DNA of 51,854 nt from Sphingobium sp. (GTDB lineage: Bacteria; Pseudomonadota; Alphaproteobacteria; Sphingomonadales; Sphingomonadaceae): contig JACESO010000007.1 of the NCBI GenBank assembly GCA_013911745.1, positions 1 to 51,854 of the forward strand, written 5' to 3'. The notes beneath the pieces were generated by a model, which worked only from the letters and a program-made list of their open reading frames with translations, was not told where the DNA came from and did not search any database. Shown here piece after piece: positions 1 to 15,494 of this stretch. The number at the start of each line of letters is the position of its first letter. The stretch's first letter is position 1. The position numbers were made by a program, and so were the translations under genes.

Positions 1-1011
1 CAGCGCCGCCTGATAGGCGAGACCGGCGGTGAAGAGCATCGAGAAGGACGTGCCCGCGCCGATATCGGTGCCAAGGCCCAGCCGGATGCCATGCGTGTCG
101 GCTTGCGCGAAATCGAAGAAGCCCGATCCCAGGAACAGGTTGGAACTGGGGCATATGGCGATGCCCGCGCCTGCCTGCGCCATTCGCGCGCAGGACCGGC
201 CGCACATATGGATGGCATGGGCGAAGACCGACCGCGCGCCGACGAGGCCGAACCGGTCATAAGCGTCGAGATAATGATAGGCGTCGGGAAAGCGATCGAT
301 CACCGCCGCACATTCTTGCACATTTTCGGCTAGATGCGTGTGGAGCAGCATGTCGGGGTGCGCCGCCAGCAGCTCGCCCGCAAGCCTCAGTTGCGCGTCG
401 CTGGAGGTCAGCGCGAAGCGGGGCGTCACCGCATAGGATAGCCGTCCTCGATTCCGCCAGCAGCGAATCAACGCTTCGCTGTCGTCGCGCGCGGCTTCGA
501 CCGTGTCGCGCAGCCCATCAGGCCCCAAGTCCATCAGCACCTTGCCCGACGCGATCCGCATGTTGCGGGCAAGCGCCGCGTTGAATAGCGCATCGACCGA
601 ATGGGCATGAACCGTGGGGAAGACCAGCGCGCTGGTCGTGCCGTTGCGGAGCAGTTCGTCCAGGAACAGGTCCGCTACTTCCCTCGCATGAGCGCGATCG
701 GCAAAGGCTTGCTCGGCCGGAAAGATATGCCGTTCCAGCCAGTCGAGCAATTGCTCGCCATGCGCGGCGATGCGGTCCATCTGCGGATAATGGACATGCG
801 CATCGACGAAGCCCGGCACGATCAAGCCGGCCAGGCTTTCCACGAGGATGCTCTGATACCGGTCGGCGAGATCCGCGTAAGCGCCCCGCGCCACGATGAT
901 GCCGTCTTCGACCACCAGCAGCCCGTCAGGGTCATGCCGGATGGCGTCTGGACGGGGGAGCGGATCGAGCGACACCGACAGGATTTCGCCGCGATAGGCT
1001 TTAAGTGTCAT
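1..1011 (-). CDS. guaD: Guanine deaminase (3' end cut by window edge)
   Basis: Hydrolyses guanine to xanthine and ammonia, feeding xanthine dehydrogenase encoded just upstream. The reverse strand translates from ATG at 1011 as MTLKAYRGEILSV and continues without a stop to base 1, so about 337 residues are visible of a family that is usually 430-450. Amidohydrolase metal motifs are visible: HVHYPQ near residue 70, THLAEN, a later HAIH, and GTDIGAGTSFS close to the window edge, which carries the metal-binding Asp. Its start overlaps the xdhC stop by four bases (ATGA), so it is the last visible gene of the purine operon. Identification is firm from motif order and context; the C-terminus is not seen. 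Confidence 0.93.
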   Translation of the reverse strand, partial: MTLKAYRGEILSVSLDPLPRPDAIRHDPDGLLVVEDGIIVARGAYADLADRYQSILVESLAGLIVPGFVDAHVHYPQMDRIAAHGEQLLDWLERHIFPAEQAFADRAHAREVADLFLDELLRNGTTSALVFPTVHAHSVDALFNAALARNMRIASGKVLMDLGPDGLRDTVEAARDDSEALIRCWRNRGRLSYAVTPRFALTSSDAQLRLAGELLAAHPDMLLHTHLAENVQECAAVIDRFPDAYHYLDAYDRFGLVGARSVFAHAIHMCGRSCARMAQAGAGIAICPSSNLFLGSGFFDFAQADTHGIRLGLGTDIGAGTSFSMLFTAGLAYQAAL

Positions 1012-1928
1012 TGCTGCCTCATCTGAAGCAACTGGGCGAGCGTGGCGATGGCGATGACGTCCGGCTCCTTGCCGGCGATATCCGCGATGCCGATCGGACA
1101 GGTCAGCCGCGCGCGCGTTGCAGCATCTATCCCGTCCTTTTCCAGCCGGGAATGGAAACGAGCCCGCTTGGTCTCCGACCCGATCAGGCCGACGAAGGTG
1201 ACCGGATTGCCGCTGAGGGCCGCCTTTGTCAGACTGTAGTCGAGCGCGTGATCGTGCGTCAGGATCAGGATGGCGGTATCCTCGGGCGCTTCGGTGACGC
1301 ATTGCTCGAGTCCGGCTTCGGGTACGACAGTCACGCCCTCGACCGTCTCGAACACCGGCCGCGTGTCGAACCAGGCAAGGCGGAAGGGCAGGCCGACGCT
1401 ATGGCGCGCGATCGCCTGACCGACATGACCCGCGCCGAACAGATAGAGCGGGCGGCGGCGCTGCCCGAATAGCTCCACCACGCTGCTCCCCGCGCGCGGC
1501 CGATCGCCCCGCGCCGAGAGGGGCGTCGCCGGCAGGGGGTGGGTGCAGTGCCGGTCGATGCGTTCGGCCATGAAGGTCGAGACCAGCGCCCGATCCTCGC
1601 CGGCATCGCCGATCCAGCCTAGCCCCGCCGGATCGACATGCTCGATGAGGAGCCGCACCCGCCCGCCGCAACATTGGCCGAGCAGCGGCCCCAGCGGATA
1701 GTCCTGTATGCGCCAACTGCCGGGCGGCAGGGCGAGGATCGCGCGCGCCTGCTCGACCGCCCGATATTCCAGCTGCCCGCCGCCGATTGTGCCAAACAGT
1801 GCGTCGCTGGTCACCAACATCCGGGTGCCAGCGCCGCGCGGAGCCGAGCCTTCGCTGGCAAGGATGCTGACCAGCGCTGCGGGGTGTCTGCGGGCGACCT
1901 CATCGAGCCATCCGAGCCAGTCGATCAT
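1008..1928 (-). CDS. xdhC: Xanthine dehydrogenase accessory protein XdhC
   Basis: Molybdenum-cofactor chaperone that binds and sulfurates Moco before insertion into XdhB. The 306-residue product starting MIDWLGWLDE contains the N-terminal XdhC/CoxI motif GSAPRGAGTRM, the conserved GQCCGG cysteine pair, and a C-terminal Rossmann motif FGAGHVGQA. I chose ATG 1928 rather than an in-frame start 67 codons upstream, because the longer form would run deep into xdhB and its extra residues look like non-coding shadow. With ATG 1928 the gene overlaps the xdhB stop by four bases, the pattern seen across this operon. It is sandwiched between xdhB and guaD, as expected for a maturation factor. Confidence 0.93.
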   Translation of the reverse strand: MIDWLGWLDEVARRHPAALVSILASEGSAPRGAGTRMLVTSDALFGTIGGGQLEYRAVEQARAILALPPGSWRIQDYPLGPLLGQCCGGRVRLLIEHVDPAGLGWIGDAGEDRALVSTFMAERIDRHCTHPLPATPLSARGDRPRAGSSVVELFGQRRRPLYLFGAGHVGQAIARHSVGLPFRLAWFDTRPVFETVEGVTVVPEAGLEQCVTEAPEDTAILILTHDHALDYSLTKAALSGNPVTFVGLIGSETKRARFHSRLEKDGIDAATRARLTCPIGIADIAGKEPDVIAIATLAQLLQMRQQ

Positions 1929-4234
1929 GGCGCGCGATGATCCCGTAAGGCCCACAAAATCCGCTCGGGCGTTGCCGGCGCGCTGAGCGCGGGCAGGGCA
2001 CGCTTGTGCGGCGCGACCGAAGCGACCGCGCGCGTCAGGGCCGAGAAGACCGAGATCGCCAGCATGAAGGGCGGTTCCCCAACCGCTTTGGACCGGTTGA
2101 TGGTCGGTTGCACATTCTCCCCGTTCCACAGCGAAATCGTCATCCGCAACGGCCGGTCCGACGCGGTCGGGATCTTGTAGGTCGCGGGCGAATGGGTGAG
2201 GAGGCGGCCTTTATCGTCGAAGACCAGTTCCTCGGTCGTCAGCCAGCCTTGCCCCTGAAGGAAGCCGCCCTCGATCTGGCCCAGATCAATGAGCGGATTG
2301 AGCGATTTGCCGACATCATGAAGGATGTCCACGGCCAGCACCTTATGCTCTCCGGTCAGCAGGTCGATCGCGACCTCGCTGACCGCTGCACCATAGGCGA
2401 AATAATAAAAGGGTCTCCCCTTATGCGCGGCGCGATCATAGGCGATGTCGGGCGTCGCATAATAGCCGGTCGAGGCAAGCGAGATGCGGCCGATATGCGC
2501 CTTGCGGCAAAGCTGGCCGAAGGACAGGCTTTCCCGGCCGGCGACGACGCCATCGGGTGTGAAATGCACCTCATCGGTCAAGCAACCGAAGGTTCGCGCC
2601 GCAAAGTCGGTCAGCCGCGCGCGAATGGTCATCGCGGCGTTGTAGGCGGCCATGCCATTGAGGTCGGCACCGGAGGAAGCTGCCGTTGCTGATGTGTTGG
2701 GCACCTTGTCGGTGCGCGTCGCGGTGATCCGCACCTGATCGATCGGAACGGCGAAGACATCGGCGACGACTTGCGCCACCTTGATGTACAGCCCCTGGCC
2801 CATTTCGGTGCCGCCATGATTGATCTGGATGCTGCCGTCCGCATAGACCAGCACCAGCGCACCGGCCTGGTTGAGATGGGTCGTGGTGAAGCTGATTCCG
2901 AACTTGACGGGTGTCAGCGCGATCCCTTTCTTGATGATCGGGCTTGCCGCGTTGAAGGCGGCGATCTCCTCGCTCCGCTCGTCGTAACGGGCGTCGGCGC
3001 GCAGCCGGGCGATGATCTGCGGCGCGACATTGTCGGCGATGGTCATATCGTAGGGGGTTATGTCGCGGCCGGGGCCGTAGAGATTGGCCGTCCGGACGTC
3101 GAGCGGGTCCAGCCCCAGATGCGCGGCGACATCGTCAATGATCCGCTCGATCGCGATCATGCCCTGTGGCCCGCCGAAGCCGCGAAACGCGGTGTCGGAA
3201 ACGGTGTTGGTCTTGAGCCGCTCCGACACGATCTCGATTGCGGGCAGATAATAGCAATTGTCGGCATGGAACATCGCGCGGTCGTTGATCGCCGGAGACA
3301 GGTCCACCGTAGCGCCGCAGCGCGAGGCGAGGCGCAGCTTGAGCGCCAGCACATGCCCTTCGGCGTCGAACCCGACATCATAGCCGATGCGGAACGCATG
3401 GCGTTTGCCCGTCATCGCCATGTCGTCGTCCCGGTCGCCGCGGAACTTGGCGGGCCGCCCGGTGCGATGCGCGACCAGCGCGGCGGCCGCGGCGAACAGG
3501 GCGGCCTGCGTCTCCTTGCCGCCGAAAGCGCCGCCCATGCGCCGCACCTCCACCGTCACGTCGGCCGAGCTGCGCTGGAGCATGTGGGCGACCAGATGCT
3601 GCACTTCGCTGGGATGCTGCGTCGAGGAGAGAATGTGCATCTGCCCGTCCTCGCCGGGCGTGGCGACGGCGACCTGCCCCTCCAGATAGAAATGATCCTG
3701 GCCACCGATATCAAACTCGCCGGTGAGGCTGAGTGGCGCGGCGGCCAACTCGGCGTCGGCGTCGCCCCGCGCCATGCGCTGCGTGGGCTCGATCAGCGAT
3801 CCCGCCGCCTGCGCTGCTTCGATGGTGAGCAAGGCGGGTAGCGGTTCATAGTCGATCCGGCCCAGCCGTGCCGCCCGGCGCGCCGCCGTCTGGCTGGTGG
3901 CGGCGACCAAGAAGACCGCCTGCCCCACATGGAGCACTTCGCCATCGGCAAGCAGCCGGTCGTCGCCCGCGCCGGGGCTGACGTCGTTAGCACCCGGAAT
4001 GTCCGCTGCGGTAAAGACCGCAACCACGCCGGGTGCCGCCCGCACGGCGTCGAGATTCATGGCGGCGAGGCGCGCATGGGCCTCGCTGCTCTGGCCGAAG
4101 GCGAGGTGAAGCATGCCCGCCGGCTCCGCCGAGTCGTCGGCGTAGCGCGCCATGCCGCTGACATGGAGCCGTGCGCTATCATGCGGATGGGAGGGCTTGG
4201 CCAAGACCGGCCGCTCGGAATCCCGCTCAGCCAT
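1925..4234 (-). CDS. xdhB: Xanthine dehydrogenase, molybdopterin-binding subunit
   Basis: Large catalytic subunit that oxidises hypoxanthine and xanthine to urate at a Mo centre. The 769-residue protein has the aldehyde oxidase/xanthine dehydrogenase hammerhead domain first (HDSARLHVSGMARYADD), then the Moco-binding segment with GGAFGGKE, and near the C-terminus KAVGEPP, whose Glu (residue 720) corresponds to the catalytic base of bacterial XdhB. Length is normal for the bacterial XdhB form. It starts inside the last codons of xdhA (8-base overlap) and ends over the xdhC start, so XdhA, XdhB and XdhC are translationally linked and probably made in fixed ratio. Cytoplasmic; functions as a heterotetramer with XdhA. 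Confidence 0.96.
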   Translation of the reverse strand: MAERDSERPVLAKPSHPHDSARLHVSGMARYADDSAEPAGMLHLAFGQSSEAHARLAAMNLDAVRAAPGVVAVFTAADIPGANDVSPGAGDDRLLADGEVLHVGQAVFLVAATSQTAARRAARLGRIDYEPLPALLTIEAAQAAGSLIEPTQRMARGDADAELAAAPLSLTGEFDIGGQDHFYLEGQVAVATPGEDGQMHILSSTQHPSEVQHLVAHMLQRSSADVTVEVRRMGGAFGGKETQAALFAAAAALVAHRTGRPAKFRGDRDDDMAMTGKRHAFRIGYDVGFDAEGHVLALKLRLASRCGATVDLSPAINDRAMFHADNCYYLPAIEIVSERLKTNTVSDTAFRGFGGPQGMIAIERIIDDVAAHLGLDPLDVRTANLYGPGRDITPYDMTIADNVAPQIIARLRADARYDERSEEIAAFNAASPIIKKGIALTPVKFGISFTTTHLNQAGALVLVYADGSIQINHGGTEMGQGLYIKVAQVVADVFAVPIDQVRITATRTDKVPNTSATAASSGADLNGMAAYNAAMTIRARLTDFAARTFGCLTDEVHFTPDGVVAGRESLSFGQLCRKAHIGRISLASTGYYATPDIAYDRAAHKGRPFYYFAYGAAVSEVAIDLLTGEHKVLAVDILHDVGKSLNPLIDLGQIEGGFLQGQGWLTTEELVFDDKGRLLTHSPATYKIPTASDRPLRMTISLWNGENVQPTINRSKAVGEPPFMLAISVFSALTRAVASVAPHKRALPALSAPATPERILWALRDHRAP

Positions 4235-5657
4235 GAGCCGTAAGACCGTCCAGCACGGATACGGTGTCGCCCTGCGCGCTATGCCACAGGCGCAGCAGCA
4301 GGTTGGAGGCGGCCTCCAGGCGATAGTCGGACGATCCCCGAACGTCGCTCAGCGGCGCATAGTCCGCGTGCAGGGCATCTGCCGCCTTTTCCATGGTCGC
4401 GCGTGAGAAGGGCTGACCTGTCAACGCCGCTTCGCACCTGCCCGCCCGCCGCGGCGTGGCCGCCATGCCGCCGAAGGCGACGCGCGCGCTCATGATCATT
4501 CCGGCCTCGACCGTCAGGTTGAATGCGCCGCAGACTGCCGAAATATCGCTGTCGAACCGACGCGAAAGCTTGGATATATGTACTAGCGCGTCCTTCGCCG
4601 GTCGGGGTATCCAGATGCTCTCGACACACTCGCCTGGCCGGAGATCCTGCTTGCCATAATCCAGGAAATACTCCTCCAGCGGTATCGTGCGGCGACCCTC
4701 GCGGCTCCGCAATGTCAGTTGGGAGCCCATCGCTATGAGAGCGGGCGGGCCGTCACCGATCGGTGATCCGTTGGCGATATTGCCGCCGACTGTTCCTGCA
4801 TTGCGCACCTGAAGTCCGCCCACCCTACGTACAAGTTCGCCAAGGTCGGGGTGTAGCCGCGCCATGGCCGCATGCGCGTCGGCATAGCGGACGCCGGCGC
4901 CGATCCTCAGACCATCGGCTTCTTCCTCGATTCTGCGCAACTCAGCGATATCCGCCAGGAAGATGAGCGTGTCGATGATCTGCAATCCCTTCGTCACCCA
5001 CAGCCCTACATCCGTCGCGCCCGCCACCATGCGTGCGTCGGGGTGTTCGGCGAGAAGCTCGATCAAGGCCGCAACGGTTCGCGGCGCGAACCATTGGCGG
5101 CCCTGATGGTTGCCCGTTGCGGTTTCCGGCGAGGAGAGGTTCTTGAGCGCCAACGCGACCGCCGTGTCATCCTGCGTTACTGGACCCACCGTCTTCCCCG
5201 CGTCCAGGATCGGGCCATAGCCGGTGCAGCGGCACAGATTGCCCGCGATTACGTCCGCTACCGGCAAATCATGGCCTACCGCGCCGATGCAGCGGCCATG
5301 GAGCGACATGACGAAACCCGGCGTGCAGAAGCCGCATTGCGAACTGCCATTGGCCGCCATGCAGTCTTGCAAAGGCGTGAGCGCGCCGTCCGCGCCACCC
5401 AGGCTCTCCACCGTCATCAGCGCCCGGCCATTGAGCATCGGCAGGAAAGTGATGCAGGCGTTGACCGACCGCCATTGCACCCGGTCCTCCTCCAGTTCGG
5501 CCACCAGCACGGTGCACGCGCCGCAGTCCCCTTCGGCGCAGCCCTCCTTAGTGCCGGTGCGACCCATGCGATAGCGCAGATGGTCCAGCAGCGTGGCGGT
5601 TGGATCGACATCTTCGATCTCCACGACATCGCCGTCGAGCAGGAAGCGCACGCCCAT
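4227..5657 (-). CDS. xdhA: Xanthine dehydrogenase, FeS/FAD subunit
   Basis: Small subunit carrying two [2Fe-2S] clusters and FAD, passing electrons from the Mo site to NAD+. From ATG 5657 (MGVRFLLDGD) the product is 476 residues. Plant-type cluster cysteines are at about 40, 45, 48 and 68 (CAEGDCGAC), and second-cluster cysteines at 108, 111, 142 and 144 (CGFC and CRC). A CO-dehydrogenase-type FAD domain follows (MVAGATDVG, then NAGTVGGNIANGSPIGD). An upstream in-frame start would add 24 residues and overlap uraH, so I reject it. The chosen start lies one base after the uraH stop. Confidence 0.95.
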   Translation of the reverse strand: MGVRFLLDGDVVEIEDVDPTATLLDHLRYRMGRTGTKEGCAEGDCGACTVLVAELEEDRVQWRSVNACITFLPMLNGRALMTVESLGGADGALTPLQDCMAANGSSQCGFCTPGFVMSLHGRCIGAVGHDLPVADVIAGNLCRCTGYGPILDAGKTVGPVTQDDTAVALALKNLSSPETATGNHQGRQWFAPRTVAALIELLAEHPDARMVAGATDVGLWVTKGLQIIDTLIFLADIAELRRIEEEADGLRIGAGVRYADAHAAMARLHPDLGELVRRVGGLQVRNAGTVGGNIANGSPIGDGPPALIAMGSQLTLRSREGRRTIPLEEYFLDYGKQDLRPGECVESIWIPRPAKDALVHISKLSRRFDSDISAVCGAFNLTVEAGMIMSARVAFGGMAATPRRAGRCEAALTGQPFSRATMEKAADALHADYAPLSDVRGSSDYRLEAASNLLLRLWHSAQGDTVSVLDGLTAHG

Positions 5658-5658
5658 C

Positions 5659-5991
5659 TTAGCTCCCCCGGTAGGTCGAGTAGGCGAAAGGCGAAACCAG
5701 CAGCGGCACATGATAATGGCCGTCCGCATCGGCGATGCCGAAATCGATCGTCACGATGTCGAGGAAAGGCGGATCGGGCAGGCTGACGCCGCGTGCCCGG
5801 AAATAGTCGGCTACCCCGAAACCGAGCCGGTAGCGGCCGGGACTTAGCGCAGGCAGGCCGGGGCAACGGCCGTCGGCATCGGTCACGCCGCTGAACAGGA
5901 GTGCGCCGTCCTTGTCGAACAGCTGCAGGGCGATGCCCGCCGCCGGGCAACCATGCGCCGTGTCGAGAACATGGGTGGACAGACTGCTCAT
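5659..5991 (-). CDS. uraH: 5-hydroxyisourate hydrolase (transthyretin-like)
   Basis: Hydrolyses 5-hydroxyisourate, the immediate product of urate oxidation, to OHCU. The 110-residue protein has the N-terminal HVLD motif and ends in YRGS, the C-terminal signature of HIUases that separates them from transthyretin. ATG 5991 (MSSLSTHVLD) is preferred over an in-frame start eight codons upstream because it gives the operon's usual four-base overlap with the preceding gene. Its presence with UraD implies that the cell makes 5-hydroxyisourate. The gene immediately upstream is a flavoprotein, not a known uricase (see that entry). Confidence 0.95.
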   Translation of the reverse strand: MSSLSTHVLDTAHGCPAAGIALQLFDKDGALLFSGVTDADGRCPGLPALSPGRYRLGFGVADYFRARGVSLPDPPFLDIVTIDFGIADADGHYHVPLLVSPFAYSTYRGS

Positions 5992-7403
5992 TCCACCGCC
6001 TCCCCGCGCGGCCATTCGCCCACGAATTCGGCCTCCTCATAGGCGAGGAGGTCGGCGACCAGCATGTCCCGGTCGTCGAGGAAAAGCTGGTCGGTGACCC
6101 CGCGCACCAAGCGCGGCAAGGCGGTCTGAAGCCCCGAAAGCGCCGAGGCGGACAGGCCAAGGCTGATGAGCGCAGAATAGTTGAAAGCAAACAGGCCGTG
6201 CAGCAGCGCTTCGCCTCCGGGCGTGCGCGGCAGCAGCTCGAAGCCGGGGCCGAGATAGGGATGGGCGTCGATCAGCGCGTTGGCGTTGCTCGTCGGGGTG
6301 AAGCGATCGGCCCAGCGGGCGATATAGGGGGATAGGTTCGCAAGCTCCGGGCGCAGGCCGGGATCGCTGATCAGGCCGGTCGAAAGCAGCACGAAATCGA
6401 AGTCGTGCGTAGCGGTCGGCGTCTTTACCCGCACCTTGCCATCCACATGCTCGACCGCCGTCCAGGGCGACCCCAGATGCAGGTCGAAGCCGGGCCAGCG
6501 CGCGGCGCGCTCGAACGTGTCGTTGGTCGGCGGTTGGTTATGGCCGAGGAAGCTCGCCATCACCGCATATTTTTCCGCGTCCGACAGCGCCGGATAGCGG
6601 CCGGTGAAGCCGACCCGCTCCATGAAGCGGATCGGATTGATGCGCGGTAGGACTTTCCGTCGGATGAAGACATGCGCTTGCGCGACGCCGAGCGTCAGCG
6701 CGGCATTGGCATTGTCGAATGCAGATGCGCCGCCGCCCAGGATGCCGATGCTTTTGCCGGCCATGGCGGCATAATCGACCGGCTCGCTGGTATGGGCATA
6801 GAGGTGCCGGGGCAGCGCATCCTTGACCATGGCGGGCGTATGCCATTCGCCCCCGCCCTGGATGCCGGTCGCCAGCACCACCTTGCGCGCGAGCAGCGCA
6901 GCCTGCCCTTCGACATGCAACCTGTGAAGCCCGTTTCCGATCGGCTCGATCGCGGTCAGGCGTGTGTCGTTGCGGACCGGCAGGCCCAACACCCGCCGAT
7001 ACCAGCGCAGATAGTCCATCCAGTCCCCGCGCGCGATCTTGTCCACCGCGTCCCAGGCGGCAGCCCCATGCTGCGCCTCCCACCAGGCGCGGTAGGTGAG
7101 GGCGGGGATGCCGAAATCGATCGGGTTGAGTTCCTTGGGCGTGCGCAGCGTGATCATTCGCGCATAGGTGTCCCAAGGGCCTTCATAACCCGCCGGGCTT
7201 TCGTCGATGATCAGGATGTTGGATACGCGCTCACGCAGCAGACCGAAGGCTGCCGCTAGGCCGCTCTGGCCGCCGCCGACGATGACGACATCGAAAACAT
7301 GGCCGTCGCCACGGACGCGCGGCCGCGTCCAGTCCGCGCCGCCAAAGCCGATGAGCAAGAGCTGGCGGGCAAGCTCCGCTTCGAGCCTGGCAAGGCCGGT
7401 CAT
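5988..7403 (-). CDS. Two-Rossmann FAD/NAD(P) flavoprotein, candidate urate hydroxylase
   Basis: A 471-residue protein of the class B flavoprotein monooxygenase type. It has an FAD Rossmann motif VGGGQSG at about 42-48, an LATG motif at about 177-180, and a second nucleotide-binding motif LGGGASA at about 222-228. No membrane segment is seen. Family knowledge gives only a general FAD-dependent oxidoreductase. By position it lies exactly between uraD and uraH, overlapping uraD by four bases, where urate oxidase is expected. No PuuD, UaZ or HpxO homologue is visible in the window. HpxO is a class A enzyme with one Rossmann motif, so this would be non-homologous in architecture. The urate hydroxylase role is inference; another purine-pathway oxidation is possible, and a uricase could lie beyond base 1. 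Confidence 0.7.
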   Translation of the reverse strand: MTGLARLEAELARQLLLIGFGGADWTRPRVRGDGHVFDVVIVGGGQSGLAAAFGLLRERVSNILIIDESPAGYEGPWDTYARMITLRTPKELNPIDFGIPALTYRAWWEAQHGAAAWDAVDKIARGDWMDYLRWYRRVLGLPVRNDTRLTAIEPIGNGLHRLHVEGQAALLARKVVLATGIQGGGEWHTPAMVKDALPRHLYAHTSEPVDYAAMAGKSIGILGGGASAFDNANAALTLGVAQAHVFIRRKVLPRINPIRFMERVGFTGRYPALSDAEKYAVMASFLGHNQPPTNDTFERAARWPGFDLHLGSPWTAVEHVDGKVRVKTPTATHDFDFVLLSTGLISDPGLRPELANLSPYIARWADRFTPTSNANALIDAHPYLGPGFELLPRTPGGEALLHGLFAFNYSALISLGLSASALSGLQTALPRLVRGVTDQLFLDDRDMLVADLLAYEEAEFVGEWPRGEAVE

Positions 7404-7849
7404 TGCTGCACCTCCCTGTCCTTGAGCCTGAGCCTGACGATCTCGCCGATCTGCGCCAGCGCGGTCGCGATTTCGGTATCGCGATCGTGGGACAGGCGAG
7501 TTTCCATCGCCGCCAATATTCCCGCCTTGTCGGTCAGGCGCACGCAGATGATGAAGGGGAAGCCGAAGCGGCCGCGATAGGCGGTGTTGAGGTCGTGGAA
7601 GCGCGCAAACTCCTCGGGCGTAAGCCGGTCCAGCCCGGCGGAAGCCTGCTCGGCGGCTGACGCGTCGGTCAGGGTCCGGTCGATCGCGGCCTTGCCCGCC
7701 AGTTCGGGATGCGCGCGGATCAGCGCCAGCTGCTCGTCGGGCGTAGCCGCGTGCATGACCGCCATCAGATCGGCATGGCGGTCGCCGGATGACGGCAGTG
7801 CGTCGGCGCGCGCCTCGACCCAGGGACTATGTTCGAACAAGGCCGTCAA
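7400..7849 (-). CDS. uraD: OHCU decarboxylase
   Basis: Decarboxylates 2-oxo-4-hydroxy-4-carboxy-5-ureidoimidazoline to (S)-allantoin. The family signature is clear: FEHSPWVEARA at the N-terminus, the RAHPELAGKAA segment with its catalytic His, and FPFIICVR toward the C-terminus. The start is uncertain. TTG at 7849 gives 149 residues and a four-base TTGA overlap with the hpxZ stop, matching the ATGA pattern of the operon. An in-frame ATG at 7894 would overlap hpxZ by 49 bases and add residues unlike the family. I prefer TTG. It overlaps the flavoprotein start by four bases. Confidence 0.9.
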   Translation of the reverse strand: MTALFEHSPWVEARADALPSSGDRHADLMAVMHAATPDEQLALIRAHPELAGKAAIDRTLTDASAAEQASAGLDRLTPEEFARFHDLNTAYRGRFGFPFIICVRLTDKAGILAAMETRLSHDRDTEIATALAQIGEIVRLRLKDREVQQ

Positions 7850-8226
7850 TGCGTGCTCCCTTCCAGGGACACATGGGCGGACACGACTTTCCACCCATCA
7901 GCGAACTTGACCCAGCTCTGCGTCTGGCGGCCGCGCCGATCGCTATTCTCGCGGAAAAATTCCGCGTCGGCGGTGGCGAAGCTATCGCCATAGACGGTGA
8001 TGGCGACCTTCCCCAGACGGCGCTGCGGCGACCCGCCGCGGCCTTTGCGGAACTCGCGTATCTCCTCGATGCCATACAGCACCTCGCCGACGCCATAGCG
8101 GTTGGTGGTGGGGGCGTCGTGGAACAGCGCGTCCATCGCCGGGATATCATCCTCCATCAGCGCGCGCTCATATTCCATGAAGGCGGCGGTGACTTCCGCC
8201 AGCAGGACGGGATCATCAATTTTCAT
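7846..8226 (-). CDS. hpxZ: HpxZ/AtzH-like protein (DUF3225, NTF2/SnoaL fold)
   Basis: A 126-residue alpha+beta-barrel protein. The pattern of DUF3225 is visible: MEYERALMEDDIPAMDALF, then NRYGVGEVLYGIEEI and a C-terminal QTQSWVKFADGWKVVSAHVS. In Klebsiella and in atrazine/cyanurate degraders, proteins of this family are encoded beside an AtzE-type amidase, its small AtzG-type partner and, in Klebsiella, the HpxW hydrolase. All four types occur in this operon. Biochemical role is not established from sequence; an accessory role to the amidase or a small-molecule enzyme are both possible. Overlaps puuE and uraD by four bases at each end. Confidence 0.82.
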   Translation of the reverse strand: MKIDDPVLLAEVTAAFMEYERALMEDDIPAMDALFHDAPTTNRYGVGEVLYGIEEIREFRKGRGGSPQRRLGKVAITVYGDSFATADAEFFRENSDRRGRQTQSWVKFADGWKVVSAHVSLEGSTH

Positions 8227-9092
8227 GCGGGGTGGACCTCCATCCAGTGGCGGGCGATGTCGATGCGGCGCGTGACCCAGGCATCGCCGCTGGCAATTAC
8301 ATGATCGAGAAAACGGGCGAGGGCTCGGGCGCGGCCCGGCCGCCCGGCGATGCGGCCATGCAGGCCGACCGACATCATGCGACCGCCCTCCTCGCGCAAC
8401 TGGTCGAACGTGTCTCGCAGGTAACGGAAGAACTGCTCACCCTCGGTGAAGCCGTTATAGGCCACGATCTTCATGTCGTTGGCGTCGAGCGTGTAGGGCA
8501 CGATCAACTGGCCCTCTGCATAATAGGGCAGATCGTCGGCATAGCTGTCCGCGTCGTAGAGGAAGCCGCCTTCTTCCCGCACAAGCCGCGCGGTATTGGG
8601 CGACGTGCGCCCCTGATACCAGCCGAGCGGGCGAGCGCCGGTGAGTTCTTCATGGAGCGCGATCGCCTGCGTAATATGCTCGCGCTCGACATCTTCGGGC
8701 ACATACTGATAGTCGATCCATCGATACCCGTGGCTTGCGATCTCCCAGTCGGCCCTGAGCATCGCCTCGACCGCTTGCCGGTTCATTGCCATCGCGCTCG
8801 CCACGCCGAAGACCGTCACCGGCAGTCCCCGTTCGATGAAAATCCGGTGCAGCCGCCAAAAGCCGGTGCGGCTGCCATATTCGTAGAGGCTTTCCATCGC
8901 CATCGCCCGATCCGGGTGGCTGGCCGCGCCGACCATTTCCGACAGGAAGGCTTCCGATCGCGCGTCGCCGTTGAGGACCGAATTTTCCGCCCCCTCCTCA
9001 TAATTGATGACGAACTGCACCGCGATCCGCGCGCCGCCGGGCCAACGCGGATCGGGCGGGGAAGCGCCATAACCGATGAGATCGCGGCTCAT
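8223..9092 (-). CDS. puuE: Allantoinase PuuE (polysaccharide deacetylase fold)
   Basis: Hydrolyses allantoin to allantoate. The 289-residue product starts MSRDLIGYGASPPDPRWPGG, the typical PuuE N-terminus, followed by FVINYEEGAENSVLNGD and the EIASHGYRWIDYQ segment of the deacetylase-like barrel. This is the non-metallo allantoinase family, not the amidohydrolase AllB type. ATG 9092 is chosen over ATG 9101 because it overlaps the pucG stop by four bases. Length matches the family, usually about 300. Confidence 0.94.
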   Translation of the reverse strand: MSRDLIGYGASPPDPRWPGGARIAVQFVINYEEGAENSVLNGDARSEAFLSEMVGAASHPDRAMAMESLYEYGSRTGFWRLHRIFIERGLPVTVFGVASAMAMNRQAVEAMLRADWEIASHGYRWIDYQYVPEDVEREHITQAIALHEELTGARPLGWYQGRTSPNTARLVREEGGFLYDADSYADDLPYYAEGQLIVPYTLDANDMKIVAYNGFTEGEQFFRYLRDTFDQLREEGGRMMSVGLHGRIAGRPGRARALARFLDHVIASGDAWVTRRIDIARHWMEVHPA

Positions 9093-10327
9093 CCTTCCCA
9101 CGCCTCCATCGCCGCGTCCACGGCCGCGCCCGCCGGCAGGCCATGCCCCTCGCGGCGCAGGCAGGCTTCTAGCGCGCCGAGCGTGATCAGCACCTTATGC
9201 CGGGCGGCATTGTAGCCCATCGCGCCGATCCGCCAGATCTTGCCGGCAAGCGGGCCGAAGGCCGTGCCGATCTCGATCTCGAACGCCTCGCGCATCATCG
9301 TGCGGATGCGTTCGCCGTCTACGCCTGCGGGGATGTAGACCCCGGTCACATTGGTCATGCGATAGGCGTCATCGCCAAAGACGGTCAGCCCCATGGCGCG
9401 CAGCCCCGCCGTCACGGCGCGGCCCGCGCGCGCATGGCGAGCATAGCGCGCCTCCAGTCCTTCCCCCAGCATGATCCTGGCGCATTCCCGCGCGGCGTAA
9501 AGCATCGATGTCGCCTCGGTATGATGGTTGAGGCGCTTTTCGCTCCAATAATCCATGATCATGGCGAGATCGAAATAGTTGGACCCGATGCGCGGCCCCG
9601 CGCCGTCGGTCGTGCCCGCCGCCTTTATGCCGGCTTCGACATGGCGGCGCGCGAAGATATGGTCGGCAGCGCGGTCCGAGATGGTGATCGGCGCTGAGCC
9701 GGACGGTCCGCCGAGACATTTCTGGAGGCCGCCGGTAACGATATCCGCGCCCCAGCGGTCGCTCGCCATTTCCATGCCGCCGATGGTCGCAGTCGCATCG
9801 ACGTAGAGCAGCGCGCCGGCCGCGTGCGCAAGGTCGCCCAGGCCATCGAGCGGCTGCGCCATCGTCGTCGAAGTGTCGCCATGCACGGTGGCGACGATCT
9901 TCGGGCCGACACGGTCAATTGCGGCGGCGATGGCGTCGAGCGGGACCGTTTCGCCCCACGGCGCATCGACCGTTACAACGACCGCGCCGATGCGCGCCAA
10001 TATCTCCTGGAGCAGCAGGCCGAAGCGGCCGAAATTGACCACCAGCACGGTATCGCCGGCGGTCACGAGACTGACGAGCGACGCCTCTATCGCCGCCCGC
10101 GCGGTGCCGTCGATCAGCATGGTCCACCGATTGTCGGTCCCGAAGATCGGGCGGTATAAAGCCATGACCTGGTTCATATAGTCGGTCATTTCGGGGTCGA
10201 ACTGGCCCAGAAGGTCGGCCGACATGGCGCGTAGCACGCGCGGATGCGCATTGACCGGGCCAGGCCCCATCAGCAGGCGCTGGGGCGGATCGATCTCGCC
10301 GAATAAGGTGGGGTCAAGCGGCAGCAA
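9089..10327 (-). CDS. pucG: PucG-like aminotransferase ((S)-ureidoglycine-glyoxylate type)
   Basis: PLP enzyme of fold type I, 412 residues. The start LLMGPGPVNAHPRVL and the PLP lysine in GGLQKCLGGPSG (Lys203) identify the alanine-glyoxylate aminotransferase family. In purine clusters this member transaminates ureidoglycine with glyoxylate, giving oxalurate and glycine (PucG in Bacillus, HpxJ in Klebsiella). Context with allantoate amidohydrolase on one side and allantoinase on the other supports that substrate rather than general alanine-glyoxylate exchange. It overlaps the allantoate amidohydrolase gene by 14 bases. Cytoplasmic. Confidence 0.88.
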   Translation of the reverse strand: MLPLDPTLFGEIDPPQRLLMGPGPVNAHPRVLRAMSADLLGQFDPEMTDYMNQVMALYRPIFGTDNRWTMLIDGTARAAIEASLVSLVTAGDTVLVVNFGRFGLLLQEILARIGAVVVTVDAPWGETVPLDAIAAAIDRVGPKIVATVHGDTSTTMAQPLDGLGDLAHAAGALLYVDATATIGGMEMASDRWGADIVTGGLQKCLGGPSGSAPITISDRAADHIFARRHVEAGIKAAGTTDGAGPRIGSNYFDLAMIMDYWSEKRLNHHTEATSMLYAARECARIMLGEGLEARYARHARAGRAVTAGLRAMGLTVFGDDAYRMTNVTGVYIPAGVDGERIRTMMREAFEIEIGTAFGPLAGKIWRIGAMGYNAARHKVLITLGALEACLRREGHGLPAGAAVDAAMEAWEG

Positions 10328-11624
10328 CGGAATCTCCCAGTCGATCGATGAAGCCCAGCATCACCTGTAGCGCGATTTCCGCGTCGGCGGGATCGACATG
10401 CTCGGCGGGGTTGTGGCTGACGCCGTCCCTGCACCGGATGAACAGCATCGCGGTCGGGCAGAGCGCGGCCATGACCATCGCGTCATGCCCGGCGCCGGAG
10501 ACGAGCCGGAAGGGCGGCTGGCCTACGATGGCGATCGCGGCGTCTATCCTATCCATGAGATCTGGCGCGCAGGGACTGGCCGGCAGATCGTGTATAAGAT
10601 CGACCGTGAGCGTCAGCCCGCGCGCGAGCGCGATCGCCTCGAGGGCGGCAATGATCTGCCCCGCCGCCCGATCGCGGCGGTCGGGGTCGCCGGAGCGGAT
10701 GTCGATCGTAAAGCGCGCTTCGCCGGGGATGACGTTCGGCGCACCGGGCAGCACCTCGATACGGCCGGCCGTCGCGACGAGATCGGAGGCGTCGCCCCTC
10801 GCGATCGTCTCGATCGCCAGCACCATTTCCGCCGCGCCTGTCAGCGCATCGCGGCGTAGTGGCATAGTGGTGGTGCCGGCATGGTTCGCCTGGCCGGTGA
10901 CGACCGCTTGGTAGCGCAACTGCGCGGCAATTCCGGTGACGGTGCCGACGGCGAGGCCTTTGGCCTCAAGGACCGGGCCTTGCTCGATATGGGCTTCGAG
11001 ATAGGCGAGGGCAGTGGGGTGCTTTGCCGTCAGATAGTCGTCACCCCGGACTTGATCCGGGGTTCCGCTGCCTAGTCCTGCGGCCGTGGAAAAGCGGGAT
11101 CCTGGGTCGAGCCTGGGGTGACGGAAGTGAGCGATGGCATCCTGTAACGTGACGCCCTCTCCATCCACGACCTCCAACGCCCCCAGATCCAGCACGCCCG
11201 CCACTGCGCGGCTGGTCAGCATCGCGGCGGGGAAGCGCGATCCCTCTTCGTCTCCGAAAGCGATCACTTCGATCGGGAAGGGCATCCGCTTTCCCTCGCG
11301 GTTCAGCGCATCCACCGCTTCCACGCCCAGCATTATGCCGAGCGGTCCATCATAGCGCCCGCCATCCTTGACGCTGTCCAGATGGCTGCCGATCATAAGC
11401 GCCGGGGCATCGGCAACCATGCCCTCGTATCGCCCGATGAGATTGGCGGCCGGATCCAGCCGGACGCTCATGCCCGCTTCCTCCATCCAGCCGGCAAGCG
11501 CACTCTGCGCCGCCGCATAGGCAGGCGTCAGATAGGCGCGGAACAGCCCGCCCTCCATGTCGCTATAGGGCGCGACGCCCAGCGCGTCGCACCGCGCCAC
11601 AGCTCGCCTGCCCCCGCTCACCAT
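10314..11624 (-). CDS. Allantoate amidohydrolase (M20 family) carrying an in-frame repeat
   Basis: Binuclear-metal amidohydrolase that releases ammonia from allantoate to yield ureidoglycine (AllC/PucF/HpxK family). The 436-residue protein has the metal-binding set: GSHLDSV (His81), YDGPLG (Asp92), FGDEEGSRF (Glu126/127), HIEQGPVLE (His212) and a C-terminal SHNPAEHV. Between residues about 168 and 196 it carries 29 residues (beginning RHPRLDPGSRF) that correspond to a palindromic DNA repeat at 11037-11123. They sit in the linker before the HIEQGP segment, away from the ligands, and keep the frame open, so the enzyme may still work. It overlaps the upstream Ntn-hydrolase gene by 7 bases. Confidence 0.92.
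   Translation of the reverse strand: MVSGGRRAVARCDALGVAPYSDMEGGLFRAYLTPAYAAAQSALAGWMEEAGMSVRLDPAANLIGRYEGMVADAPALMIGSHLDSVKDGGRYDGPLGIMLGVEAVDALNREGKRMPFPIEVIAFGDEEGSRFPAAMLTSRAVAGVLDLGALEVVDGEGVTLQDAIAHFRHPRLDPGSRFSTAAGLGSGTPDQVRGDDYLTAKHPTALAYLEAHIEQGPVLEAKGLAVGTVTGIAAQLRYQAVVTGQANHAGTTTMPLRRDALTGAAEMVLAIETIARGDASDLVATAGRIEVLPGAPNVIPGEARFTIDIRSGDPDRRDRAAGQIIAALEAIALARGLTLTVDLIHDLPASPCAPDLMDRIDAAIAIVGQPPFRLVSGAGHDAMVMAALCPTAMLFIRCRDGVSHNPAEHVDPADAEIALQVMLGFIDRLGDSVAAA
11037..11123. repeat. REP-like palindromic repeat inserted in a coding sequence
   Basis: An imperfect inverted repeat of about 85-87 bases. The left arm begins CGTCACCCCGGACTTGATCC and the right arm ends GGATCCTGGGTCGAGC then CTGGGGTGACG. 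The reverse complement of the right arm matches the left arm over about 30 bases with a few mismatches. The loop region is about 25 bases. Elements beginning GTCACCCCGG and ending GGGGTGAC are a familiar dispersed intergenic repeat of sphingomonads. Here it lies inside the allantoate amidohydrolase gene and is exactly 29 codons long by the protein comparison, so it adds residues without a frameshift. I saw no second copy in the window. Confidence 0.8.
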
Positions 11625-13201
11625 GTCGCCACCCCGCCGTCGCTGCGCGGATCGCTCGCGCCGTCCAGCGTGCCGTCGGGATGCCGCACGATAGCGCCGG
11701 CATGGCCCATGGTGGCGGTCAGCGGCCCAGCCCGCTCGACATCATGTCCGGCGCTGGCGAGGTCGGCATAAAGCTGGTCATCGAACCCGTCTTCCAGCTT
11801 CAGCGTCGTGCTTTCCTCGCCCCAGGTGCGGCCAAGCAGCCAGCGCGGCGCGCTTATCGCCTGCTGCAAATCGACGCCGAAACGGGCGTAGCGGCTAAAG
11901 AGCGCCGCCTGCGTCTGCGGCTGGCCCTCGCCGCCCATCGTGCCATAGGCCATGACGCGGCCGTCATCGAACCGCGCTAGCGCGGGGTTGAGCGTGTGGA
12001 AGGGCTTGCGGCCGGGCTTGAGTGCGTTCCACCTGCCCGGCGCAAGGCGAAAGCTGGAACCCCTGTTCTGCCAGGTGATGCCGGTCCTGGGCAGCACCAC
12101 GCCGGAGCCGAACTCGAAATAGGTGGACTGGATGCAGCTGACGACGCGGCCGTGGCTGTCCGCCGCCGAGAACCAGCAGGTGTCGCCCCATTGCGGCGGC
12201 TGCGGCCATGGCAGCGCCTGCGCCGGGTCGATCTGCGTAGCCAGATGGTCGAGCGCTTGGCGGTCGTCCAGTAGCCCCTGATAGTCATAATCGTGGAAAG
12301 CGGGGTCGCCGACATGGACGTCGCGCAGCAGGAAGGCCTGCTTGGTCGCCTCGACCAGACCATGGACATGATCGAAGCCGTCGGCTCTCCCGGCCCGTAG
12401 CCGGTCGAACAGCGCAAGGATGAGCAGCGAAGCGAAGCCCTGTGTGGGTGGTGCACTGTTGTAGAGGGTCGCGCCGCTGATTGGAACATGGAGCGGGGCC
12501 GGGTGGGTGGCCTCATGCGCAGCAAGATCGGCGGCGGAAACGGGGCTGCCCAGCGCTTCAAGATCGGCGGCGATGTCTGCGGCGAGAGCGCCTGTGTAGA
12601 ATCCCGCGAGCCCATCCGCAGCCAAACACTCCAGCGTGTCGGCAAGAACGGGCTGCTTTAGAATGTCGCCTTCCGCCAGAGGGCGGCCCTCCGGTTCAAA
12701 GATCGCGCCATAGCCGCCCGGCTGGACGCGCAACTCGCCGCCCTTGGCCGCCGCGATGGCTGCGCCGCCCTTTGTCACTGCCACGCCCGCCCGAGCATGG
12801 CTGATCGCGTCGCGCAGCAGGCGGTCGAGCGGCATCGTCCCGCTACTGCCGGCCAGTGCGGCTTCCCAACCGGAAATGGTCCCCGCCACGGTATTCGCCG
12901 CCAGCGGGCCGCGCGTCGGCACCGCGTCCGTCCCGGCATAGAGCGAGATGTCCGCTTTCATCGCTGCGCCGCCGCAGCCATGGATGCCGTGGACGCGCCC
13001 GTCCGGTTCGGCGATCAGCCAGAATCCATCGCCACCTATTCCCGTCATATGCGGATAGACGACGGCCAGCGTCGCGGCCATCGCCACGCAGGCCTCCACC
13101 GCGTTGCCGCCGTCGCGCAGCACGTCGCACCCGGCGCTTGCGGCCAGGTGGTGGGGCGCGGTCGTCATGCCGTGCCGGCCGGAAATGGTCTGCATCGTCA
13201 T
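11618..13201 (-). CDS. hpxW: Gamma-glutamyltransferase-family Ntn hydrolase, HpxW-like (oxamate amidohydrolase)
   Basis: A 527-residue proenzyme of the GGT fold, expected to cleave itself before Thr341 (motif QWGDTCWFSAAD) to make two subunits. N-terminal GRHGMTTAPHHLA and GIGGDGFW, and C-terminal GTMGGEGQPQ, are family landmarks. No signal peptide is seen, so it is cytoplasmic, unlike the usual periplasmic GGT for glutathione. In Klebsiella the cytoplasmic GGT homologue HpxW, encoded with hpxX, hpxY and hpxZ in the urate cluster, hydrolyses oxamate to oxalate and ammonia. All three partners occur in this operon, so that function is my best inference. Start ATG 13201 shares one base with the preceding stop; a second ATG two codons in is possible. 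Confidence 0.82.
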   Translation of the reverse strand: MTMQTISGRHGMTTAPHHLAASAGCDVLRDGGNAVEACVAMAATLAVVYPHMTGIGGDGFWLIAEPDGRVHGIHGCGGAAMKADISLYAGTDAVPTRGPLAANTVAGTISGWEAALAGSSGTMPLDRLLRDAISHARAGVAVTKGGAAIAAAKGGELRVQPGGYGAIFEPEGRPLAEGDILKQPVLADTLECLAADGLAGFYTGALAADIAADLEALGSPVSAADLAAHEATHPAPLHVPISGATLYNSAPPTQGFASLLILALFDRLRAGRADGFDHVHGLVEATKQAFLLRDVHVGDPAFHDYDYQGLLDDRQALDHLATQIDPAQALPWPQPPQWGDTCWFSAADSHGRVVSCIQSTYFEFGSGVVLPRTGITWQNRGSSFRLAPGRWNALKPGRKPFHTLNPALARFDDGRVMAYGTMGGEGQPQTQAALFSRYARFGVDLQQAISAPRWLLGRTWGEESTTLKLEDGFDDQLYADLASAGHDVERAGPLTATMGHAGAIVRHPDGTLDGASDPRSDGGVATW

Positions 13202-14127
13202 CAGTCTGGCAAGGCCGCGACATAGGCGCGCACGACGTGCGCGCTATTCACGGAGGCCAGGTGCTCGAACGTATCCTCCATATTCTTGGTGGCATCGCCG
13301 CCGGCGAGGTCCGAGAGGCTGCGGAAGAAGATCGCCGGCACGCGATTGGCATAGGCGACCTGTGCCACCGCCGCGCTCTCCATGTCCAGCAGGCGCGCGC
13401 CCCACGCCTTGTGCAGATATTGGCGGAAGGTCGCATTGTCGGCGAAGATGCCGGCCGATACGCCGGTGCCGCCGACAACGATCTTCGGCGACTTCGGCAG
13501 GCAAAGCGCGGAGCCGGGCAGTGCTTCGGGATGATGGGGGACGCAGCGCTCCAGTTGGACGTCGGGCACGACTTTCCGGGCGATGTCCAGCAACGCGGGA
13601 TCGACGGCGAAGCGGAAGAAGCGCTTTGCCGGCGTTGTGTCATTGCTGACGGTGGTCCCACGCGGAAAGATGAAGTTCCAGTTGGCGGGCGCGTCCGGCC
13701 CCGCATTTTCCGGCGGGACATAGCCGGCCTTGGTGCGCCGGGCGAAGCTCGCTTCCAGATATTGGCCCCAGCTGTCCGCCACGATTACGTCCCCGATCGA
13801 CAGCGCCGGATCGACGCCGCCGGCGATGCCGGAAAAGACGATGCGCTTCACCGCGAAACGATCAATGACGATCTGGCTGTTCATCGCCGCGTTCACGATC
13901 GACACGCCGCTCATCATCAGGATGACGGGCTTGCCCGACATAGTGCCGGTCAGCAGCGTCATGCCGTTGATCTTCTGCTCGCACGGCTGCTCGACATGGG
14001 CGACCAGCGCATTCCATTCCGGCCGATAAGCGGTCATCACGACCGTGCGCGGCGTCTCGTCCAGCTTCTGGGCGAGCGCGGGCGCTGCGAACAATGAGAG
14101 CAGCGCAAAGGCAAGAAAACGGATCAT
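13201..14127 (-). CDS. Exported purine nucleoside phosphorylase/nucleosidase family protein
   Basis: A 308-residue member of the PNP_UDP_1 superfamily (MTA/SAH nucleosidase-like). Key segments are FSGIAGGVDPALSIGDVIVAD and LDMESAAVAQVAYANRVP, the second holding the ribose-binding Met-Glu. ATG 14127 gives a clean signal peptide ending PALA at residue 19, so the mature enzyme is probably periplasmic. The longer reading from 14331 is rejected because it buries the signal peptide and overlaps the permease gene by 200 bases. An exported enzyme next to a base permease suggests it frees purine bases from external nucleosides. Whether it uses phosphate or water is not shown. It overlaps the permease stop by four bases. 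Confidence 0.83.
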   Translation of the reverse strand: MIRFLAFALLSLFAAPALAQKLDETPRTVVMTAYRPEWNALVAHVEQPCEQKINGMTLLTGTMSGKPVILMMSGVSIVNAAMNSQIVIDRFAVKRIVFSGIAGGVDPALSIGDVIVADSWGQYLEASFARRTKAGYVPPENAGPDAPANWNFIFPRGTTVSNDTTPAKRFFRFAVDPALLDIARKVVPDVQLERCVPHHPEALPGSALCLPKSPKIVVGGTGVSAGIFADNATFRQYLHKAWGARLLDMESAAVAQVAYANRVPAIFFRSLSDLAGGDATKNMEDTFEHLASVNSAHVVRAYVAALPD

Positions 14128-15494
14128 GCAGCGGACATCCAGACGAAGCGCACGACGAACAGCCCGGCGAGCAGGAACAGGAACCAGTCGGTCCGCGTCG
14201 CGCGGCCCCGGATCAGTTTCAGCGCCGCATGGGCGGTGATGCCGAAGGCGAGACCGTTGGCGATGGAGAAGGTCAGCGGAATCATTGCCACCGTGAGGAA
14301 GGCAGGGATCGCCGCCATCGGGTCTTCCCATTCGATTTCCGTCAGCGGCAGCAGCATCAGCCCACCGACGATGATCAGCGCAGGGGCGGTTGCCGCCAGT
14401 GGCACGATCTGCGCATAGGGCGCGACGAACATCGTCGCCAGGAACAGTATGCCGGTGACCACGGCGGTCAGGCCCGTGCGCCCGCCGGCCTGCACGCCCG
14501 CCGCGCTCTCTACATAGGAGGTGACGGTACTGGTGCCCGCGATCGATCCCACCATCGTCGCGACCGCGTCGGTCATCAGGATGCGGTTGAGGCCTGGAAT
14601 GCGGCCCGCCGCGTCCATCAGCCCCGCGCGCTTCGTAACGGCGACCAGCGTGCCGATATTGTCGAACAGGTCGACGAACAGGAACACGAACAGGATTTCG
14701 ATAAGGCCGATGCCGTGCGACCCGGTCAGCCCGAACACGCCAGGCAGATCCAGCTTGAACGCCGTGCCGGTCAGCGCGGACAGGTCATAGGGTTCGGGCT
14801 TGACCGTCACTTGCCCCGTCAACCACCCGATGATGGTCGTGCCGACAATCCCGAACAGCATGGCGCCACGCACATTCCAGACGCTGAGCGCGCCAATCAT
14901 CGCGAGGCCCAGCAGCGCGAGGGCCGCGCCTGGCGCCTTGAGGTCTCCCAACGCCACGATGGTCGCCGGACTGGCGGCGACGATGCCGGCATTTTTGAGG
15001 CCGATGAAACCGATGAACAGGCCGATGCCCCCCGCCACCGCCGCGAACAGGTAGGGTGGGATCACTGCGACGATCATCTGCCGCACCCCGGTCAGCGTCA
15101 GGATCAGGAAGGCGACGCCGGAAATGAAAACGCATCCCAGCGCCACCGGCCAGGGCACACCCATTTGGCCGACGACGGTGAAGGCGAAATAGGCGTTGAG
15201 GCCCATGCCCGGCGCCAGCGCCAGCGGCGTGTTAGCGACCATGCCCATCAGGATGGAGGCGAAGGCGGCGGCGAAGCAGGTCGCCGCCGCGACCGAAGCG
15301 ACCGGCATCCCCGCCGCGCTCAGGATCGACGGGTTGACCAGCACGATATAGGCCATGGTCAGGAAGGTGGTGATGCCCGCCAATATCTCGGTGCGGGGGG
15401 TGGTGCCGCGCTCGGTCAGGGCGAAATAGCGGTCCAGGCGGTTGGGCGGCGGCGGCGCTGTGGCCGCCGGATCCGGCGAAACGGCTTCGGTCAT
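14124..15494 (-). CDS. NCS2 (AzgA-like) purine base permease
   Basis: Inner-membrane transporter of 456 residues with about 12-14 hydrophobic segments. Family markers are GITTFLTMAYIVLVNPSILS near the N-terminus, ALAPGMGLNAYFAF, and the substrate-site loop LFVDLFDNIGTLVAV. This COG2252 subfamily imports adenine, guanine, hypoxanthine and sometimes xanthine in symport with protons. It lies directly before the exported nucleosidase, with four-base overlaps on both sides, so the likely cargo is the base that enzyme releases. The exact base specificity cannot be read from sequence. Confidence 0.9.
   Translation of the reverse strand: MTEAVSPDPAATAPPPPNRLDRYFALTERGTTPRTEILAGITTFLTMAYIVLVNPSILSAAGMPVASVAAATCFAAAFASILMGMVANTPLALAPGMGLNAYFAFTVVGQMGVPWPVALGCVFISGVAFLILTLTGVRQMIVAVIPPYLFAAVAGGIGLFIGFIGLKNAGIVAASPATIVALGDLKAPGAALALLGLAMIGALSVWNVRGAMLFGIVGTTIIGWLTGQVTVKPEPYDLSALTGTAFKLDLPGVFGLTGSHGIGLIEILFVFLFVDLFDNIGTLVAVTKRAGLMDAAGRIPGLNRILMTDAVATMVGSIAGTSTVTSYVESAAGVQAGGRTGLTAVVTGILFLATMFVAPYAQIVPLAATAPALIIVGGLMLLPLTEIEWEDPMAAIPAFLTVAMIPLTFSIANGLAFGITAHAALKLIRGRATRTDWFLFLLAGLFVVRFVWMSAA

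Follow-up and report, generated by a model that had tools for sequence, protein, structure and literature searches.

A probable HpyO-type urate hydroxylase gene between uraD and uraH in the purine operon of a Sphingobium genome

The window analyzed here, a stretch of 51,854 nucleotides from Sphingobium sp. (contig JACESO010000007.1 of assembly GCA_013911745.1, positions 1 to 51,854), carries on its minus strand a purine operon with the order allC, aminotransferase, puuE, hpxZ, uraD, a flavoprotein gene, uraH, xdhA, xdhB and xdhC. It belongs to a binned assembly of 2.89 Mb in 147 contigs, which is 81% complete. An earlier reading of this DNA, here called the original prediction, had assigned the flavoprotein to the urate oxidase slot of the operon and had proposed that it would be a third, non-homologous flavin solution to urate hydroxylation, or else might oxidize another purine-derived compound. 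The comparisons described below indicate that the gene is very probably hpyO, whose product would be a flavin adenine dinucleotide (FAD) enzyme hydroxylating urate ahead of UraH and UraD. The genes of the locus are as follows (ORF, open reading frame).

5988-7403, minus strand: hpyO, predicted FAD/NAD(P)H-dependent urate hydroxylase, 471 amino acids (PF13454, PF13738 and PF13434 above cut-offs; clade placement; motifs)
7400-7849, minus strand: uraD, decarboxylase of 2-oxo-4-hydroxy-4-carboxy-5-ureidoimidazoline (OHCU) (TIGR03164, 176 bits, cut-off 96; TTG start at 7849 adopted, longest ORF from 7894)
5659-5991, minus strand: uraH, 5-hydroxyisourate hydrolase (TIGR02962, 112 bits, cut-off 87; ATG start at 5991 adopted, longest ORF from 6015)
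7846-8226, minus strand: hpxZ (NF033625, 151 bits, cut-off 135)
8223-9101, minus strand: puuE, allantoinase (TIGR03212, 487 bits, cut-off 425)
9089-10327, minus strand: aminotransferase, putatively of the pyridoxamine-pyruvate / aspartate-glyoxylate type (best model NF046070, 172 bits, under the cut-off of 600)
10314-11624, minus strand: allC-like allantoate amidohydrolase (NF006775, 559 bits, cut-off 479)
4227-5657, minus strand: xdhA, xanthine dehydrogenase small subunit (TIGR02963, 576 bits, cut-off 467; start at 5657 adopted, longest ORF from 5729)
1925-4234, minus strand: xdhB, xanthine dehydrogenase molybdopterin subunit (TIGR02965, 1194 bits, cut-off 850)
1008-1928, minus strand: xdhC, xanthine dehydrogenase accessory protein (TIGR02964, 264 bits, cut-off 162; ATG start at 1928 adopted, scanned as 1008-1934)
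14124-15494, minus strand: purine/nucleobase permease (PF00860, 148 bits, cut-off 27)

The frame of the flavoprotein gene, which starts with ATG, and its four-base overlap with the end of uraD (7400-7403) were found as originally described; the gene also overlaps the start of uraH by four bases (5988-5991). Both glycine-rich motifs named at the outset are present, VGGGQSG at V42-G48 as the FAD motif and LGGGASA at L222-A228 as the NAD(P) motif. The protein scored above the Pfam cut-offs of three FAD/NAD(P)-binding families, PF13454, PF13738 and PF13434, the last with a partial match (30.5 bits, cut-off 21.3). In InterPro, PF13454 is described under the names HpyO and CreE. No curated model of NCBIfam release 20 was passed by the protein (best ArsO, 50 bits, cut-off 425). 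At an E value of 0.001 it matched neither PF01494 nor the HpxO model NF033623, and the domains of UOX (PF01014) and PuuD (PF06181, Urate_ox_N) were not matched either, in agreement with the view that the protein is not HpxO.

An AlphaFold2 model was built from 37 sequences (alignment A2: the window protein and 36 of the 80 homologous loci introduced below, chosen with a preference for named assemblies; locus L165 was left out since no start codon was found). The model reached a mean predicted local distance difference test value (pLDDT) of 86 and a predicted template modeling score (pTM) of 0.87. In a Foldseek search the top ranks were held by SsDesB and by ornithine and putrescine N-hydroxylases. 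Superposition with VIA-align gave Z 29.2 with PvdA (root mean square deviation, rmsd, 3.1 over 375 residues, 19% identity), Z 28.2 with KtzI (rmsd 3.5, 379 residues) and Z 26.5 with the flavin-containing monooxygenase (FMO) of Stenotrophomonas (rmsd 3.9, 327 residues). The predicted fold is thus class B-like with two dinucleotide domains, as proposed before, and by domains, motifs and fold the protein appears as a two-domain flavoprotein with FAD- and NAD(P)-binding motifs, unlike HpxO. Likeness in fold alone would demonstrate no function.

HpyO from X. campestris was reportedly shown by complementation in Acinetobacter baylyi by Michiel and colleagues in 2012. According to the accessible text of PMC4562309, which cites Michiel et al. 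2012, the urate-oxidizing HpyO of Xanthomonas is a flavoprotein working with NAD(P)H and FAD, and it has no homology to HpxO. An alignment of seven sequences (A1) served to scan named genomes; of 560 confirmed stretches the best 80 were retained, so that phylum counts among them describe the nearest relatives only. Eight named Xanthomonas loci were among these 80. Their proteins are 63-65% identical to the window protein over residues 4-466, and all eight loci show the order AllC-AGT-PuuE-HpxZ-UraD-[gene]-UraH, the same as in the window. A survey of 35 Xanthomonas genomes gave matches in 31, of which 30 contain one intact homologue within the same range of identity, one of these 30 with two extra weak matches. 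In the remaining genome (G641, C1:87060-88455) hpyO lies in three pieces, which probably means that the copy is disrupted or that the sequence contains an error.

In a quick tree of 76 rows, with support from the Shimodaira-Hasegawa-like approximate likelihood ratio test (SH-aLRT) only and no bootstrap, 41 rows formed a single clade that contains the window protein together with Xanthomonas, Sphingomonadales and Bacillota members (SH-aLRT 100, stem 0.65); several long rows outside this clade are unsure in place. The motif GIQGGG, residues 180-185 of the window protein, is present in all 41 clade members and in none of the other 35 rows. Two further patterns were absent from all 41: FxGxxxHxxx[W/F/Y], which we take to be the fingerprint of Baeyer-Villiger monooxygenases, and ATGY, presumably the motif of N-hydroxylating monooxygenases. 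The Bacillota members were drawn among the Pseudomonadota within the clade, with a fork support of only 83-90, and this nesting suggests transfer.

The identity to the Xanthomonas proteins, the same operon slot and order and the common clade are the reasons for calling the window gene hpyO. They also decide on the novelty of the protein. A genuinely new family of urate hydroxylases, apart from HpyO, HpxO, UOX and PuuD, would fit with the failure to reach a curated NCBIfam model and with the names of the annotated plasmid relatives, which among the matches listed read only NAD(P)/FAD-dependent oxidoreductase or oxidoreductase. Against it stand the degree of identity and the identical operon order in Xanthomonas, the very genus of HpyO, and the maximal support of the shared clade, so that we regard a new family as extremely improbable. 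The original prediction of a third flavin solution was therefore not supported, as a flavin urate hydroxylase unrelated to HpxO has, by the accessible text of PMC4562309, been known since 2012 and the window protein shares a clade with the Xanthomonas protein of the same slot. Almost certainly the family is one already known, the window protein is a further HpyO, and the function had been read correctly.

No known uricase had been visible at the outset, and profile searches of the whole binned genome for UOX, PuuD and HpxO bore this out: PF01014 and PF06181 had no match, and the HpxO model had four weak ones, of which the best reached 126 bits where the cut-off is 500. This best match, on contig 93, was rejected as HpxO, being a PF01494 monooxygenase far under the cut-off; the model also yields matches below cut-off in 12 of 14 control genomes. 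Taken alone, this absence is weak evidence, since the assembly is incomplete and in many contigs. The same incompleteness lends something to a different explanation, namely that the protein is a monooxygenase of the same fold acting on another purine-derived compound, for instance a methylated purine or urate, the true uricase lying in an unassembled part. This explanation has to be judged on other genomes.

The original prediction had suggested a survey of whether the gene goes together with uraH and uraD where known uricases are lacking. Whole-genome tests were made for 50 of the 80 loci (33 Pseudomonadota and 17 Bacillota genomes, the choice favoring named assemblies). UraD was found in all 50 genomes, UOX in two and full-length PuuD in none, which argues against the oxidation of another compound. 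An association with uraH and uraD in genomes that lack UOX and PuuD was thus observed, save for the two genomes with UOX, HpxO having been sought only in the window's genome. PF06181 exceeded the Pfam cut-off in four of the 50 genomes, in one of them with a second short piece. All four matches were partial; none spans more than 92 of the 295 positions, and the open frames that hold them are of 200-209 amino acids. Short DUF989 proteins are set apart from PuuD in the accessible text of PMC4562309, and the four matches, which fit such proteins, were rejected as PuuD.

In the order to which the window belongs, 196 genomes were searched for HpyO and for UraD, the two sets agreeing in the rows listed. 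Two HpyO matches had E values below 1e-200; all others were at 5.7e-10 or weaker. UraD was found in 39 genomes, none of which has UOX. Two of the 39 contain HpyO without PuuD, 35 contain PuuD, with strong matches of 186 bits or more, and no HpyO, and two contain neither. Three of the 35 PuuD genes are cut or in pieces: in G096 there are two pieces on two contigs, in G111 a piece at a contig end only, and in G069 the match covers model positions 4-262 of 295. Many of the PuuD-bearing genomes also carry a short PF06181 match. As to the two genomes with neither gene, G013 (100% complete) has no UOX and no PF06181 match, and G075 (85% complete) has no UOX and short PF06181 matches only. From these counts HpyO and PuuD alternate at one step of the pathway among the genomes sampled, with only two HpyO genomes on one side. 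They were never found together, and this alternation makes the oxidation of another purine-derived compound unlikely.

The gene neighborhood points in the same direction for Pseudomonadota. UraH and UraD were both present in the fetched flanks of 47 of the 80 loci. The order UraD-HpyO-UraH, among the operon genes sought, was found in 40 of 41 loci from Pseudomonadota, in the one without phylum, in the one labelled Actinomycetota and in two of 37 from Bacillota, where five of the 37 loci have both UraH and UraD nearby. On a plasmid of Priestia filamentosa the order is permease-uraD-uraH-gene. Thirty loci were also fetched around plasmid and genome relatives; UraH or UraD was seen in six of them and neither gene in the remaining 24, which all lie outside the clade. 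This is the second point in favor of another substrate: relatives outside the clade lie mostly away from UraH and UraD, so the fold probably serves further substrates. A third comes from Paenibacillus terrae (L168:941-3952), where the homologue is part of a purine locus in which two Rieske oxygenases (PF00355, VanA_C) directly precede a fused UraD-UraH gene; this locus also carries AllC, an aminotransferase, HpyO and a deaminase. At a guess, the Rieske oxygenases are perhaps demethylases of methylated purines. Set against the counts from the 50 genomes and the alternation with PuuD, these points leave another substrate for the window protein very unlikely, if less remote than a new family.

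Two relatives with about 47% identity extend the picture beyond the clade. One, on a plasmid of Niveispirillum, occupies the UraD-X-UraH slot and does not have GIQGGG. The other, in genome G524 (L067:3388-14614; 47%), also without GIQGGG, lies beside a DUF4147/MOFRL gene, UraH and AllC. UraD was not found by tblastn within 16 kb of this locus, and the genome gave no UOX or PuuD matches. A nucleoside hydrolase-like ORF and transporter ORFs of sugar or nucleoside type, judged by eye, were also noted there. Within the clade, HpyO was found in many Bacillota, and 15 of the 17 tested Bacillota genomes have no UOX. UraD was present in all 17, although most of the Bacillota HpyO copies found do not adjoin the pathway genes. 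That urate hydroxylation extends to the more distant relatives of Niveispirillum and G524, and that a transferred HpyO is the main enzyme for urate oxidation in many Bacillota without UOX, Paenibacillus included, seems to us an evenly balanced proposal.

Several observations weigh against HpyO as the urate hydroxylase of these loci. For 32 of the 37 Bacillota loci, tblastn detected neither UraH nor UraD in the flanks fetched, which in some cases were short. The UraD count in Bacillota comes from HpyO-bearing genomes only, and both genomes with UOX are Bacillota. Four of the 35 Xanthomonas genomes gave no match at an E value of 1e-5. The link to HpyO rests on eight named Xanthomonas loci other than the published one and on the genus survey. 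Finally, the search for HpxO covered the window's genome only, and this genome is itself incomplete. Taken together, the position between uraD and uraH, the co-occurrence with UraD and the alternation with PuuD uphold the assignment to the urate oxidase slot; from sequence comparison, the role as the urate-oxidizing enzyme of the locus is well supported, and we infer that the window protein oxidizes urate as HpyO of Xanthomonas does.

In flavin monooxygenases NAD(P)H reduces FAD, a flavin hydroperoxide forms and the substrate is hydroxylated. The HpyO of the window would work as a single FAD-containing component in which two distinct Rossmann domains bind FAD and NAD(P), and the xanthine dehydrogenase of the same operon would supply its urate. 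By analogy with class B-like monooxygenases, NAD(P)H would reduce the flavin, O2 would then give the flavin hydroperoxide, and one oxygen would be placed on C5 of urate, yielding 5-hydroxyisourate along with NAD(P)+ and water. The unstable 5-hydroxyisourate would be converted via OHCU to S-allantoin by UraH and UraD, encoded by the overlapping genes, and PuuE and then AllC would carry the pathway further.

Some additional features of the locus were noted. The allC-like gene contains at 11037-11126 (minus strand) a 90-base in-frame, insertion-like stretch (HPRLDPGSRF...TPDQVRGDD) resembling an interspersed repeat element, with a 75% match at L125:13517-13601. The allC homologues of L093, L095 and L100 are shorter by 25 residues at this place; the closest homologue, L092, is not. 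The minus strand also carries genes for a nucleoside phosphorylase-family protein (13201-14127, PF01048) and an adenosine deaminase (18137-19249, PF00962). The N-termini of both proteins resemble signal sequences, as judged by eye, which suggests breakdown of purine nucleosides outside the cytoplasm.

The result is a useful annotation rather than a new principle. It proposes a function for a gene that passes no model of the NCBIfam release used and whose listed annotated plasmid relatives bear only oxidoreductase names, it offers GIQGGG as a sequence mark for telling HpyO from look-alikes, and it indicates that HpyO and PuuD replace one another in the Sphingomonadales sampled. In the literature searched we found no report of HpyO in Sphingomonadales or Bacillota; the survey of PMC4562309, in its accessible text, counts hpyO across 1689 genomes, and its supplement may already list both groups.

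Compared with known systems, the window protein resembles in its predicted fold PvdA, KtzI, SidA and the Stenotrophomonas FMO (PvdA and the FMO with the Z values given above), but has only 15-23% identity to them and, like the rest of its clade, does not contain the FxGxxxHxxx[W/F/Y] fingerprint. The known substrates of N-hydroxylating and small flavin-containing monooxygenases are amines or sulfides. PuuD and UOX act at the same pathway step and had no match in the window's genome. HpxO of Klebsiella and Acinetobacter (NF033623) would share the presumed reaction and the cofactors, but is of the PF01494 type, to which the window protein has no match; HpxO is a class A flavoprotein. HpyO of Xanthomonas differs in that the window's host belongs to another class of bacteria and in that xdhABC follows uraH in the window, whereas tblastn found no such genes in the fetched Xanthomonas flanks. 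In the uraD-X-uraH slot, in sequence and in clade the two agree, and PF13454, PF13738 and PF13434 were also found in the one Xanthomonas protein scanned.
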